NCBI RefSeq assembly: GCF_003254275.1
Contig: NZ_QKZK01000001.1
Location: 230,940-294,939 of the forward strand
Origin: Breznakibacter xylanolyticus
GTDB taxonomy: Bacteria; Bacteroidota; Bacteroidia; Bacteroidales; Marinilabiliaceae
DNA: 64,000 bases
Direction of reading: 5' to 3'
This document shows, piece by piece, positions 1,962 to 8,668 of this stretch. Made by a program: the position numbers and the translations under genes. The notes beneath the pieces are model-generated. The model worked only from the letters and a program-made list of their open reading frames with translations, did no database searches and had not been told where the DNA came from. Within the stretch, counting starts at the first letter, position 1, and the number at the start of each line of letters is the position of its first letter.

Positions 1962-3488
1962 TTATGCCATTGTGATGAGTGATTTGCCGGTCATCTCCTC
2001 GGGCTGCTCAATGTTCATCAGTTGGAGGATCGACGGAGCCACATCGGCCAAAATACCATCTTTCACCGTGCCTTTGCGGTCGGTCACCCAAATGAACGGA
2101 ACGGGGTTGAGCGAGTGAGCTGTGTTGGGGCTGCCATCGGGGTTCACCGCGTTGTCGGCATTCCCGTGGTCAGCAATGATGATGGCTTCGTAACCGTTGG
2201 CCACAGCCGTTTCTACCACTTCTTTAAGACAGATGTCAACCGTTTTCACGGCTTTCATGATGGCCTCGTACACGCCGGTGTGACCCACCATGTCGCCATT
2301 GGCAAAGTTGAGGGCAATGAAGTCGTATTTCTGTTTGTTGAGTTCGGCAACCACCGCGTCTTTCACTTCGTAGGCGCTCATTTCGGGCTGAAGGTCGTAA
2401 GTGGCCACTTTGGGAGAGTTGATGAGGATGCGATCTTCGTGCTCGTAAGTGGCTTCGCGTCCACCCGAGAAAAAGAAGGTTACGTGGGCATATTTTTCGG
2501 TTTCGGCAATGCGCAATTGCTTGAGGCCTTTGGCGGCAATCACTTCGCCAATGGTATTGCTCACGTTGTCTTTGTCGTAAAGGATGTGCATGCCCTTGAA
2601 GTTGGCATCGTAGGGCGTCATGGTGCAGTAGTACAGGGGAATGGTTTTCATGCCGTGCTCGGGCATGTCCTCCTGGGTGAGCACCTGGGTGATTTCGCGG
2701 GCGCGGTCGTTGCGGTAGTTGAAGAACACCACCACGTCGCCATCGCTGATGGTTCCCACGGGTTTGCCGGCAGCGTCAACGGCCACGATGGGCTTGATGA
2801 ATTCGTCGGTCACATCGGCATCATACGAAGTCTGAATGGCGTCGAGCACATTGGTGGTGGTGGCGCCTTTGCCCAATACCATCAGGTCGTAAGCTTCTTT
2901 CACGCGCTCCCAGCGTTTGTCGCGATCCATGGCGTAGTAGCGGCCAATGACAGAGGCCACTTTGGCTTTGGTCTCTTTGATGTTGTCGAGCAGTTCGCTC
3001 ATGAAGCCTTTGCCGCTCTTGGGGTCGGTGTCGCGACCATCCATAAAGGCGTGTACAAAGATGTTGGCAATGCCGTAGCTGTTGGCAATTTCGACCAGTT
3101 TATAAAGATGCTCCTGTGAGCTGTGTACGCCCCCTTTGGATACCAACCCGAGGAAATGCACCTGTTTGCCGTTTTCTTTGGCATAGGTCATGGCTTTTAC
3201 CAGTTCGGGGTTTTTGTACATCGAGTTGTCGCGAACGGCAATGTTGATTTTCACCAAATCCTGATAAAGCACGCGGCCGGCGCCAATGTTGAGGTGACCC
3301 ACCTCGGAGTTGCCCATTTGCCCGTCGGGCAGACCCACGTTTTCGCCCGAGGCTTGCAGTTGAGCGTGGGGATATTTTTGTTCCAGACTGTGGAAATAAG
3401 GGGTTTCGCCCGTGGCGATGCAGTCCGATTTGCTTTTGTTTCCGTATCCCCAGCCGTCGAGGATAATCAAGATGGTTTTCTTAGACAT
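1962..3488 (-). CDS. gpmI: 2,3-bisphosphoglycerate-independent phosphoglycerate mutase
   Basis: 508 residues, the normal length for iPGM. It interconverts 3- and 2-phosphoglycerate in glycolysis/gluconeogenesis through a phosphoserine intermediate and needs two Mn2+. The metal-binding Asp11 is in [11 protein letters not shown], the nucleophile is Ser61 in [14 protein letters not shown], the substrate-binding motifs [11 protein letters not shown] and [12 protein letters not shown] are in the middle, and the C-terminal metal site is [10 protein letters not shown]. It is monocistronic: own terminator downstream and a -7-like box upstream. Unusually GC-rich compared with the plus-strand genes in the middle of the window. 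A long plus-strand open frame opposite is only its shadow. Confidence 0.97.
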
Positions 3489-3572
3489 GTTTGTGTATTT
3501 TAATTTTTATATTCTGCAGTAAATGGGTTGCACAGGCAACGCTGTTGAGGTGTCACTGAAAGTGAACGAGCG

Positions 3573-3580
3573 CAAAATTA
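3573..3580 (-). promoter_or_regulatory. Putative -7 box for gpmI
   Basis: Minus-strand TAATTTTG, matching TAnnTTTG, about 85 bases before the gpmI start. No convincing -33 element. Confidence 0.4.
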
Positions 3581-3734
3581 GTTTTTTTGATGTGGATAGC
3601 GACGTTTACCCTTATAAATTAAAGCACTTTAACACCTTGTGAGGATAACAATGCCCTTGTGGGGGTTGTTCATCGGGGGGGATGTTTTCAATTGTTTTTT
3701 TTTGATGATGATGTGGGGCGTTTCCCCCATTTTC

Positions 3735-4079
3735 GGCCGACGGGCTGCCGCAACTTGTCGGCAGACAATCGCCCCCGGCCGACGCATCCTCAAAAGTGGC
3801 GGCAAGGATTCGCCACCGGCCGAAAGGTTGTCGCCGGTTTGCGGGAGCCATTCGGCCGTGGCCGACGCATCCCCTGAAATGGCGGCAAGGTTTTGGCTGC
3901 TGCCTGATTAGGGTCGTGTATTTGCGGAAAAGTTTCCGATGCGTCGGAATGGCTGCCGCAAATGTGCGGCAAGGATTCCGACCGGCCGGATTGTTTGCCG
4001 CAAAGGTGCGACAAGGATTCCGACACCTCGGAATGGCTGCCGCAGGTTGTCGGCAAGGATTCCGACCGGCCGGACGGCT
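3735..4079. repeat. GC-rich array of about eight degenerate 42-bp palindromic units
   Basis: Units begin near 3736, 3778, 3820, 3861, 3903, 3945, 3987 and 4029, so the period is 42 (once 41) bases. The best units (3945, 3987, 4029) share a GCCGCA...GTGCGGCAAGGATTCCGAC core. The 3945 unit folds on itself: outer stem CGGAAT (3945-3950) with ATTCCG (3975-3980), inner stem GCCGCA (3955-3960) with TGCGGC (3965-3970), loop AATG. Units are joined by the palindrome CCGGCCGG. The 5' units are strongly diverged. The array is clearly more GC-rich than its flanks. Because 42 is a multiple of 3, several 80-110-codon open frames run through it on both strands; I regard these as spurious. Confidence 0.8.
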
Positions 4080-4122
4080 TTTTTCACTTCCCGCTCATCG
4101 TAAATGGAGGGTGGGAGACGCC

Positions 4123-4168
4123 AATCCTTCTACGATATAACTCTTTTGAATTATAAAGTAGAAGGATT
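4123..4168. repeat. 11-bp perfect inverted repeat beside the 42-bp array
   Basis: AATCCTTCTAC (4123-4133) and its exact complement (4158-4168) are separated by 24 AT-rich bases. No T run follows on either strand, so it does not look like a standard terminator. Confidence 0.6.
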
Positions 4169-4258
4169 TGAACACAGGTTTAATCGTATCTCAAACGCAC
4201 AACACAACTTCAAAAAAACGGTGTGACTTTGTGCTTCTGTGTTCACAGAAAACTCAGT

Positions 4259-4307
4259 GTCTCTTCAGTCTAATCTGTCTGTCTTTCGTCTAAAAATCTT
4301 CCTGTCT
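4259..4307 (-). repeat. Inverted partial copy of the 157-bp intergenic element
   Basis: These 49 bases match the reverse complement of part of the 5027-5183 element with 5 mismatches (counted by eye), covering the AGAC-rich left half. Terminal repeats are missing, so it looks like a remnant. With the full copy at 5027 it brackets the MBL-fold gene in opposite orientation. Confidence 0.75.
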
Positions 4308-4348
4308 TCCTGATCGAAGGCTTGATTAGCGTCCTCCAAAAGTCGGCG

Positions 4349-4987
4349 TCACAGGTAAGGATTGTGCTTTTTTTCCCACCCGATGGTGGTTTCGGGGCCG
4401 TGTCCGGGATAGACGATTGCCTCGTCGGGCAGGGTAAAGAGTTTGCCGGTGATGCCCTGTTTGAGCAGGTCGAAACTACCGCCGGGCAGGTCGGTGCGGC
4501 CTATGCTGTCGCGAAACAGCACATCGCCGGCCAACAGGCGCTGGCCTTCGGGGTCGTACAGCACCACGCTTCCGGGCGAGTGCCCCGGTACGTGCAGCAC
4601 CTTCAGGTGGCTGTTGCCAAAGGTGACTTCGTCGCCCTCGTTCAAACGATGGTTTACTGCCGGCGGGTTGCTGTTCATGCGAATGCCGTAGCTCAGGGCA
4701 TGGTCAACGGTGTGGGGCAGCATGAACTCGTCGCCCTCGTGCGCCCATATTTCCAGGTTCCAACGATCGGCCACCCAGGCGCTGCCAAACACATGATCGA
4801 GGTGCAGGTGGGTGTTGACAATTTTAACGGGCTTGAGGCCGTTTTGCGTGATGAAAGCTTCCAGTCGTTGCTCCTCACGTACTTCCAAACATCCGGGATC
4901 TACAATGATGCACTCTTTGGTGTCGTCGTGCAAGACGTAGGTGTTGATTTGGAACGGGCTAAATGCAAAGGGTGTGATGTGTATCAT
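4349..4987 (-). CDS. MBL-fold metallo-hydrolase (glyoxalase II-like)
   Basis: 212 residues. The zinc-binding motif THLHLDH is at 59-65, with a further GHSPGSVVLY histidine motif and a C-terminal YPGHGPETTIGWEK segment, the arrangement of short glyoxalase II-like hydrolases. Such proteins usually hydrolyse thioesters such as hydroxyacylglutathione, but Bacteroidota members have no assigned substrate, so no gene symbol is given. The protein is cytosolic (no signal peptide). It stands alone: repeat-rich DNA on both sides separates it from gpmI and pcm, with inverted copies of one repeat on its two flanks. Confidence 0.9.
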   Translation of the reverse strand: MIHITPFAFSPFQINTYVLHDDTKECIIVDPGCLEVREEQRLEAFITQNGLKPVKIVNTHLHLDHVFGSAWVADRWNLEIWAHEGDEFMLPHTVDHALSYGIRMNSNPPAVNHRLNEGDEVTFGNSHLKVLHVPGHSPGSVVLYDPEGQRLLAGDVLFRDSIGRTDLPGGSFDLLKQGITGKLFTLPDEAIVYPGHGPETTIGWEKKHNPYL

Positions 4988-6040: not shown

Positions 6041-8668
6041 TTACAGTTTTGCCTTAATGAGTTCCCCGGCTTTGGCCAGTGCTTGGTCAAGTCCGGCCGG
6101 GTTTTTACCCCCTGCTGTGGCAAAGAAAGGCTGTCCGCCGCCACCGCCCTGTATTTCTTTGGCCGCTTCGCGAATGATGAGTGAGGCGTTGAGGTCGTGC
6201 TTTTGTGCAGTTTCTTCACTTATGATGACGGCGATTTGCGGGTTTCCGCCGGCCATCACGCCCAACACGGCTACCACATCGGCAGCATCGCCGCGCAGCT
6301 GAAACGCGAAATCCTTCAGCACGCCGGCATACATGGGGTCGATGTTGGCCACCACCACCCGGGTGCCGTTCACGTTCATCGCTTTGGCCAGGAGTGTTTG
6401 TTTTTCAACGGCAATCATCTGTTTGCGCAGTTGGTCGAGTTCGCGACTCAGGGCGCTGTTCTCTTCCTGCAGCACTTCGACGCTGCGTTTGAGATTCGAT
6501 GGATTTTTGAGGGTGGTATGGAGGTCGCGCAGCAGGTTTTCCTGTCCGTACACAAACTCCTCGGCCTTGTGCCCGGCCACGGCCTCGATGCGACGCACGC
6601 CGGCCGAGATGCTCGATTCGCCGGTGATTTTAAAGTATCCGATTTGTCCGGTGGCTTGCACGTGGGTTCCACCACACAGTTCAACGCTGTTGCCAAAGCC
6701 AATGGTGCGCACCACGTCGCCGTATTTTTCGCCAAACAGTGCCATGGCTCCCATTTCGCGGGCTTTTTCGATGGGTGTTTCACGTCCTTCGTGCAGCGGG
6801 GCGTTTTCGCGAATGAGTTGGTTGACGCGTTTTTCGATGGCCACAATTTCGTCCTCGTTGACCTTTTGGAAGTGGCTGAAATCGAAGCGCAGGTGGTCGG
6901 CATGTACCAGTGACCCTTTTTGCTCAACGTGCGTGCCCAGTATTTCGCGCAGTGCCTTGTGCAGCAGGTGGGTTACCGAGTGGTGACGGGCAATGGCCAG
7001 TCGTTTGTCTGCATCCACTTTGGCCACGAATGTGGCCGCCGGATTCTCGGGCAGCGCATTGGCAATGTGTACAATGAGGTTATTTTCTTTTTTTGTATCA
7101 ATGATGTCGATGCGCTCGTTGGCATTGGCAATGGTTCCAGTATCACCCACCTGTCCGCCGCTTTCGGCATAAAATGGGGTGACGTTAAACACCAGTTGAT
7201 ATTGTTCTTTGTTTTTGGCTGTGATTTTGCGGTAGCGGGTAATGATGATGTCGGCCTGCAGATGGTCGTAGCCAATGAATTTGACCTGTTCGTCTTCTTT
7301 AAGCACCACCCAGTCGTCGGTTTGAATGGCGGTGGCATTGCGGGCGCGTTGTTTTTGAGCTTCCATTTCGGTTTCAAACTCCCCGCGGTTGAGGGTGAGT
7401 TCGTTCTCTTTCAAAATCAGTTCGGTGAGATCCAGAGGAAAGCCAAAGGTGTCGTACAGTTCAAAGGCCACTTTGCCACTCACTTCACTGCCGCCGTTAG
7501 CACGGGTTTCGGTAATGATCTTGTTCAGGAGTGAAATACCGGTTTCGAGCGTGCGCAGAAACGACTCTTCTTCTTCTTTCATCACCTTGGTGATAAGCTC
7601 TTGTTGTGCTTTTAATTCGGGATAGGCATCGCCCATGCAGGCCACCAGGGCGGGGATGAGTCGATACATGTAACTTTCGCGTGAACCCAAAAACGTGTAA
7701 GCGTAACGTACGGCACGGCGCAAAATACGACGTATGACGTAACCGGCTTTGTTGTTCGATGGCAATTGACCATCGGCAATGGCAAAGGCAATGGTGCGGA
7801 TGTGATCCGAAACCACGCGCATGGCCACATCGGTTTGTGTGCTGCTGCCGTATTTAATATTGGTCAGGCGTTCTTGTTCGGCAATGATGGGGGTGAAGAT
7901 ATCGGTGTCGTAGTTCGACTTTTTCCCCTGAAGCACGCGTACCAGGCGCTCGAATCCCATACCGGTATCGACGTGCTTGCTGGGCAGTTGCTCCAGTTCG
8001 CCCGATGCTTTGCGGTTGTATTGAATGAAGACGTTGTTCCAAATTTCGATGACCTGAGGGTGGTCGTTGTTCACCAGCTCACGCCCGGGTTTGAGGGCAA
8101 TTTCATCGTCATCGCGCAGGTCAATGTGTATTTCGGAGCAAGGGCCACATGGGCCCGATTCGCCCATCTCCCAAAAGTTATCTTTTTTGTTGCCATCGAT
8201 GATGTGGTCGGCGGGCAGGTGTTTGAGCCAAATGTTGTAGGCTTCGTTGTCGCGCTCCAAACCATCACCGGCATAGCCTTCGAAAACCGTTGCATACAGT
8301 CGGCTCTTGTCAATTTTGAGCACTTCGGTAAGGTATTCCCACGCCCAGTCGATGGCTTCTTGCTTAAAGTAGTCACCAAACGACCAGTTGCCCAACATCT
8401 CAAACATGGTGTGGTGGTAGGTGTCATGACCCACTTCCTCCAGGTCGTTGTGTTTGCCCGATACACGCAAACATTTTTGCGAGTTGGCCACGCGTTTATC
8501 CACAATGGGGCTGTTGCCCAAAAATATTTCCTTAAACTGATTCATCCCCGCGTTGGTAAACATCAGGGTGGGGTCGTTTTTGACCACCATGGGCGCCGAT
8601 GGCACAATGCGGTGCTGTTTGCTGGCAAAAAAATCGAGAAAACTTTGTCTAACCTCTGCTGCTTTCAT
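6041..8668 (-). CDS. alaS: Alanyl-tRNA synthetase
   Basis: 875 residues, full length for AlaRS. It charges tRNA-Ala and edits mischarged Ser/Gly. The N-terminal class II core begins [14 protein letters not shown] and includes [11 protein letters not shown] and [18 protein letters not shown]. The editing domain has the zinc-type motif [12 protein letters not shown] and the distal [15 protein letters not shown]. The C-terminal DHHA1-like domain ends with [20 protein letters not shown], the C-Ala glycine-rich element. Bacteroidota AlaRS has this architecture. The nearest plus-strand neighbour (M23 peptidase) is divergent across 275 bases. Very long open frames opposite are shadows. Confidence 0.98.

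Follow-up and report, generated by a model that had tools for sequence, protein, structure and literature searches.

Among the described systems closest to the array reported here, REP elements come first. In the passages of PMC3733652 on which we draw, REPs lie mostly between convergent and unidirectional genes, and the CGTC-REPs are made of an unpaired CGTC tag, a stem of 8-9 bp starting with AT, a loop of 4-5 and a CCA tail; clusters are rare in the CGTC families. REPtrons are treated in PMC6006769, which in the part available to us reports atypical secondary structures flanking such genes in Bacteroidetes. The BrickBuilt minisatellite/MITE of Porphyromonas gingivalis, as presented in the relevant sections of PMC4596501, is intergenic and consists of tandem 23-nt units in variable copy number, with one A+T-rich consensus, a leader and a tail, and 18-19 elements per strain in those reported. 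The tandem repeats of Borgs are described in the pertinent passages of PMC9879509 as head to tail, virtually all with their own unit sequence and of independent origin; they are perfect A-rich direct repeats, about half of them within genes, with examples of 18-21-nt units. Because sequence is the usual basis for grouping tandem repeats, arrays that are alike only in period and symmetry pass unnoticed when they are met singly, and in the portions of the open-licence literature that we searched we found no paper on arrays common in period but not in sequence.

How does a single palindromic array compare with these systems? The array lies in a window of 64,000 nucleotides from Breznakibacter xylanolyticus, by which we mean the whole stretch of DNA analyzed. 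It separates gpmI, encoding 2,3-bisphosphoglycerate-independent phosphoglycerate mutase (1962-3488, minus strand; Pfam iPGM_N and Metalloenzyme), from a gene for an MBL-fold hydrolase (4349-4987, minus strand; Pfam Lactamase_B), the same two neighbours that a preliminary description had named. The start codon of gpmI is about 245 bp from the array and the stop of the MBL-fold gene about 270 bp. Delimited by lag-42 identity and G+C content, the whole palindromic tandem array extends over about 3733-4076, neither it nor its parts being assigned to a strand. Lag-42 identity over 3733-4079 is 0.541, while the best lag between 18 and 66 in 1000 dinucleotide shuffles has a mean of 0.323 and a maximum of 0.370. 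The array is real as a tandem 42-bp structure and, as had been noted, is far more GC-rich (62.6% over 3735-4079) than its flanks (39.8% over 3489-3734 and 41.3% over 4080-4348). An A+T-rich inverted repeat with 21-nt arms, 86% complementary, lies outside it at 4123-4168, between the array and the MBL-fold gene.

Eight strict 42-base units had been proposed. The 42-bp tandem period holds; strictness is confined to three units, 6-8 (3943-4068), each with two alternating palindromes. Unit 6 is identical to the consensus of these three (42/42), and units 7 and 8 match it at 34 and 36 of 42 positions. Units 2, 4 and 5 match at 19, 19 and 22 of 42, and units 1 and 3, read in the same register, do not rise above shuffles (p 0.78 and 0.37). 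The older, diverged part of the array (3733-3942), of about five units, is one base out of register with the young part; this one-base phase shift gives its best fit (0.448 of bases, against an all-phase mean of 0.266). It also contains an 83-bp higher-order repeat, in which 3734-3816 and 3817-3899 are 71% identical. Tandem Repeats Finder limits its call to 3945-4074, with 3.1 copies. Divergence toward the 5' end, another early observation, is thus borne out; the growth at the 3' end that had been suggested with it fits the gradient, and the array would then be a young 3' expansion on top of an older one. The joint sequence CCGGCCGG, supposed to stand at every joint, occurs at two places only, 3982 and 4066.

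The palindromes that had been recognized in the units fall into two types. In the young units a palindrome A (TTCCGAC..GTCGGAA type) alternates with a palindrome B (TGCCGCA..TGCGGCA type). Palindrome A is TTCCGATGCGTCGGAA at 3934-3949, with further A-type copies at 3977-3990, 4017-4034 and 4062-4077; palindrome B is TGCCGCAAATGTGCGGCA at 3954-3971, with a second copy at 3995-4014 and a third, degenerate one recognized by eye near 4037-4056. They span 14-20 bp within a two-palindrome unit of 42 bp. Five successive centres, at 3941.5, 3962.5, 3983.5, 4004.5 and 4025.5, follow at steps of 21.0 bp, and the next two that were detected, 4057.5 and 4069.5, fall off this lattice, owing to the degenerate B palindrome in the last unit. 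Read as a periodic sequence, the 42-bp unit is 0.81 self-complementary at its best centre (2000 shuffled units: mean 0.48, maximum 0.67); the unit may thus be viewed as a module of 21 nt and, after it, the same module inverted. Since any periodic sequence that has one dyad has another at half its period, the spacing of 21 bp is no independent evidence beside the 42-bp period.

Does the array belong to a family that is dispersed by sequence? Barely. A DNA search of the whole 4.38-Mb genome at E<=0.001 recovered one other array, C2:127568-127698, 81% identical over 131 bp; to judge from the sequence, one of its neighbours is a gene with a terminator-like hairpin behind it and the other a gene in convergent orientation. 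The exact B pattern matched only the window's own copy in the genome, and the window palindromes were not found there as dispersed singles. The consensus search called for at the outset thus yields a second copy and not the many copies envisaged, and by sequence the window array is nearly unique in this genome, the one that represents its genus. At least two of 71 genomes matched in a family search and at least two of 393 in a sample of the order, own genome included in both; up to ten and two candidates, respectively, were scored per genome, so that misses are a weak sign of absence. The second family match, a 20-bp stretch in G023, looks like chance. The second match in the order, in G337 (L018), is an array of 42-43 bp with the same plan and another sequence.

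A covariance model (R1) built from ten units, with up to 14 candidates scored per genome, matched at least eight of the 393 genomes at E<=0.001, own included. It also pointed to further places in our own genome, where the palindromes are others: C1:142083-142224 (E 4.6e-6), in which TTTCGCCCCGGGGCGAAA recurs every 42 bp, and sites on contigs C6, C8 and C22, for which the model reached only E 0.4-1 but inspection showed 41-42-bp arrays. In the alignment of ten rows, 80.9% of cells pair, as against 75.1% in shuffles, and 12 cells are altered on both sides, as against 5.5, values that none of 500 shuffles reached; pairs with two-sided change (6 vs 4.3) and further pair types (9 vs 8.1) are not unusual. 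The alignment was framed by hand, and its pairing signal is therefore weak support.

Within a collection of named genomes the exact 26-base consensus had no match. A looser pattern matched 14 stretches, with arrays of lag 41-42 that include Bacteroidales, Tannerellaceae and Chitinophagaceae assemblies; the B core, as in the window array, is also found in arrays of assemblies labelled Tannerellaceae and Chitinophagaceae. Since the looser pattern itself fixed the spacing, these named records are not counted toward the result on periods. Two of its matches are without an array, L058 (best-lag z 4.0) and L066 (best-lag z 4.5); they were excluded from the named Bacteroidota records, as was L060 (CAMYMN010000028.1, a MAG labelled Gammaproteobacteria), in which a 40-bp array with a B-type palindrome lies at about 7830-7890. 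This last array could reflect a binning error or a true presence beyond Bacteroidota.

Do the period and symmetry recur where the sequence does not? Intergenic regions no shorter than 130 bp were searched for repetition at any lag from 18 to 66, with no model, a threshold of z 6 and four shuffles per region. Our own genome was represented by 36 consecutive stretches of contigs C1-C3 (720 kb) and E. coli K-12 by a sample of 200 kb. Across five genomes of the order, 47 tandem arrays were found in 508 intergenic regions: 28 in 227 regions of our own genome, 5 in 88 of G019, 14 in 116 of G287, and none in 36 of G024 or in 41 of G110, despite the arrays that G110 has in other parts of its genome. 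The E. coli sample had none in 56 regions. No shuffle passed z 6 in the main scan; one did in an earlier run, at z 6.02, and all 34 arrays of our own genome listed in that run exceed this value. Periods of 21-23 or 41-44 bp, classes picked after seeing the data, account for 35 of the 47 arrays (16 of 28 in our own genome, all five in G019 and all 14 in G287). The sample was not blind: that contigs C1 and C2 carry the window array and its relative was clear from the start, L167 (a stretch of G287) was chosen for its arrays, and G287 and G110 were selected because of covariance model matches. If the window array, its relative and the array of L167, all three familiar before the scan, are set aside, the two classes account for 32 of 44. 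Shuffled regions of our own genome and G287 have their best lag in these classes in 40 of 343 cases, against 49 expected. At least two arrays, C1:142035 and C2:67375, are absent from the count of 47, probably because the simple gene caller put frames over them. Four more stretches of our own genome, chosen with the model, have arrays in six of 27 regions; these lie outside the 47 and inside a set of 53.

By ungapped comparison the 53 arrays fall into 39 sequence families, 33 of which belong by majority to the 21-23 or 41-44 class. Dyad symmetry of the whole unit, at p<=0.01 uncorrected, is present in 11 of the 53 and absent at that level in the other 42. Nine of the 21 arrays at 41-44 bp are symmetric (all at 41-42), as are one at 46 and one at 63, and none of the 20 at 21-24 bp, where short units lower the power of the test. 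A stricter measure, perfect palindromic arms, places 11 of 50 arrays above all 60 shuffles, with both period classes represented. Several 42-bp arrays that lack the dyad consist, to judge by eye from their units, of two similar direct 21-mers. Direct 21-mers on the one hand and inverted units on the other led us to describe the arrays in terms of a roughly 21-nt module, repeated either in one orientation or with every second copy inverted. The window array is thus one of many by architecture, sharing a step of about 21 or 42 and not a sequence, and the dispersed palindromic family that had been considered for it exists in this architectural form. Nine intergenic arrays of another kind, tandem DNA with a purine/pyrimidine skew (ACTCCTCCACTCTTCC type), cluster into a dispersed family of their own, and the periods of eight fall in neither the 21-23 nor the 41-44 class; the sites of this family include L094 19066, L099 4774, L104 10869, L108 4684 and L110 13467.

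Gene orientation adds a further regularity. The share of regions with an array is 11 of 56 where the flanking genes converge, 32 of 321 where they are codirectional and 4 of 131 where they diverge (convergent vs divergent p 0.0004, without correction for length). The 11 dyad-symmetric arrays do not follow this convergent bias, with four in convergent, four in divergent and three in codirectional regions. What the data show is that certain periods are in excess in the sample, that some arrays of the 41-42 class have dyad symmetry, that each array has a sequence of its own and that the arrays as a whole favour convergent over divergent regions.

We give about an even chance (roughly 0.5) to the reading that the window array is a BIME-like palindromic minisatellite acting at the DNA level, built of modules by a process blind to their sequence whose step is close to 21 bp. 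Head-to-tail joining of roughly 21-nt modules would give a period of 21-23, and inversion of every other module a period of 41-42 with two palindromes per unit. Replication slippage, or fold-back of a hairpin on single-stranded DNA, would multiply a local piece. Such a process, indifferent to sequence but favouring a step of roughly two turns of the helix, would keep a short array homogeneous and let separate arrays drift apart. Arrays would persist where they do little harm, and any effect they had would be exerted on DNA. What we infer beyond the regularities themselves is this building process, its fold-back step, persistence by tolerance and action at the DNA level.

A wider proposal, which we advance tentatively and at somewhat less than even odds, is that Bacteroidota carry a sequence-blind array builder with a step of about two turns that can use any starting piece of 21-23 nt, direct or alternating. 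What fixes the step would be an enzyme or the geometry of DNA, not the sequence, and some genomes would accumulate dozens of unrelated arrays of like period. If unrelated arrays do keep a step of about 21 bp, the cause would be physical, be it an enzyme footprint, helical geometry or a limit on hairpin length, and such a step, if true, would bear on how REP and BIME arrays start.

The strongest rival makes the array a fossil REP or BIME array, the work of a Y1 (HUH) transposase, IS200/IS605-type or RAYT-type, that has since been lost or lies at a distance. A known palindrome-array system of just this kind, its period almost equal to that of the window array, is present in the genome. At C9:130796, a Y1 transposase gene assigned to IS200/IS605 by NCBIfam above the cut-off has on both sides tandem arrays of a 20-nt palindrome with lags at 43 bp or near multiples of it (L153, about 1047-1325 and 1948-2140; G000:C9, about 130340-131440). 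The pattern of this palindrome occurs at 22 sites in the genome, nine at C9 and 13 elsewhere, and a control pattern at none. Among three Y1 genes tested, two score best with a model of REP-associated tyrosine transposases, below its cut-off (72.4 and 49.3 of 80 bits), and the REPtrons and flanking structures of Bacteroidetes, as far as PMC6006769 was available to us, point in the same direction. Against such an origin, none of the seven Y1_Tnp matches in the genome is near the window array, whose palindromes are not dispersed as singles and which has neither GTAG nor CTAC in 3733-4079; seven matches are also fewer than the sequence families of arrays in just part of the genome. We consider a Y1 fossil unlikely as the source of the window array.

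Could a protein account for the spacing? Dimers bound to palindromes on one face of the helix, as in an operator cluster, a nucleoid or looping site, or a roadblock, would suit centres 21.0 bp apart, or two turns of B-DNA, and dyad symmetry beyond chance; equal mismatch classes on the two strands also fit constraint at the DNA level. The spacing argument weakens beyond this array. Pooled palindrome spacings of our own genome and G287 peak at 10.5, 21, 42, 63 and 84, a pattern that is partly forced since an array with one dyad has another half a period off. With one vote per intergenic region, the genome-wide 10.5-bp phase reaches z 0.5 in our own genome and z 2.7 in G287 (null maximum 3.5); it is not significant, and we dropped a genome-wide helical phase of palindromes. 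Periods of 22-23 bp are not exactly two helical turns and lose the helical face; like the missing phase, they also tell against the two-turn step of our own preferred reading. Moreover, the 39 families have no detectable similarity and mostly like periods, so no single sequence-specific protein explains the arrays.

Comparison of G287 with G367 bears on the same question. At one orthologous locus, in a region whose aligned blocks have 83-90% identity, two adjacent arrays differ in conservation: the second has 2 differences in 182 bp, which favours a bound protein, but the first has 15 in 183 bp, which does not. Constraint, gene conversion and recent exchange could each account for this single case. 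Array and flanks at another locus (L037 vs L044) seem by eye to be similarly conserved. We regard the protein-binding account, for the arrays as a whole, as rather unlikely. Homology between G287 and G367 ends at the end of the second array (G287:C3:363739-363920), and about 2 kb of extra DNA in G367 (L168, G367:C334) start exactly there. By eye, this extra DNA may code for an AAA-ATPase-like protein and a partner, possibly a defence pair. Such arrays may mark insertion points.

A structured RNA, likewise suggested at the start, would place the hairpin array in a transcript running from the MBL-fold gene to gpmI, with a role in 3' end protection, termination or control of gpmI. The minus strand, that of both genes, does fold beyond shuffles (z -8.1; plus strand z -4.8), but folding of both strands is to be expected of any array of palindromes. 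When consensus units were compared with shuffled ones, fold energies gave a mixed outcome that carries no weight in the argument. Rfam had no match in the window at the gathering threshold; the best within 3600-4200, taken as chance, scored 15.4 bits (gathering score 44; E 0.99), and no terminator-like or promoter-like site was found in 3450-4400. The greater frequency of array regions between convergent than between divergent genes would suit such an RNA, but the dyad-symmetric arrays, divided 4 and 4 of 11, do not follow it. Within codirectional regions, the arrays (26, the skewed ones left out) are not shifted toward the upstream gene's 3' end (mean 0.54). Stem cells, read on the strand inferred to be transcribed, number 416 standard, 26 G-U, 27 A-C and 70 other; they come from the 14 of 35 codirectional arrays whose consensus has enough pairs, the cells are not independent, and the power is modest. 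Constraint on RNA would favour G-U, and 26 G-U against 27 A-C shows no wobble bias. Foldability apart, nothing speaks for a structured RNA, and we judge it improbable.

A repeat-containing protein gene, already disfavoured, is very improbable: six frames of 64-114 aa are open over much of the array, but five of them, when searched against Pfam at E<=0.1, had no match, the array changes register by one base, and arrays elsewhere have frame-breaking periods of 22, 23 and 41. The array is non-coding as far as searched, and the early warning of false genes was apt, since such arrays give spurious frames in practice.

Where, then, does the array stand among known systems? The window array is REP/BIME-like in build: it is intergenic and G+C-rich, with alternating palindromes, and REP and BIME elements share with it a palindromic unit of 20-40 bp in intergenic DNA. 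It departs from REP families in dispersed copies and in the tag. Those families have many dispersed copies of one palindrome and a GTAG tag, whereas the window array has a single relative array at E<=0.001, is without that tag or its complement, has no transposase match beside it and shares its period with unrelated sequences. The stems of the young units begin ATTCC..GGAAT, which recalls the CGTC-REPs, as do, by eye, some G287/G367 arrays and our own C1:142035 array that start with CGTC and end with GACG or GAC. In these arrays, however, CGTC is partly in the stem and is not an unpaired tag, and the one CGTC of the window array lies inside a palindrome (3942). In C1:142035-142311, G287:C3:363575-363920 and G287:C5:274420-274560, the CGTC start and GACG or GAC end replace inner TTTC/GAAA or TTCC/GGAA, and to the eye it looks as if the array ends were marked.

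The recurrence of both halves of the 42-bp unit speaks against a CRISPR array, in which unrelated spacers of one size separate identical repeats and cas genes are present. BrickBuilt is also an intergenic element of Bacteroidetes with short tandem units; its 23-nt consensus, AGAYCATARTATCCTCTCRTRTG, has no match in the window at up to three mismatches. Borg repeats differ in belonging to archaeal extrachromosomal elements, and the passages that describe them mention no alternation of palindromes. The arrays that flank C9:130796 resemble the window array in combining palindrome and linker outside genes at nearly the same period (lag 43), and differ in a palindrome that also occurs elsewhere (13 of 22 sites) and in the transposase gene between the two arrays. 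A minisatellite has tandem units of 10-60 bp in a number that differs from strain to strain; the window array shows the tandem structure in the one genome of its genus.
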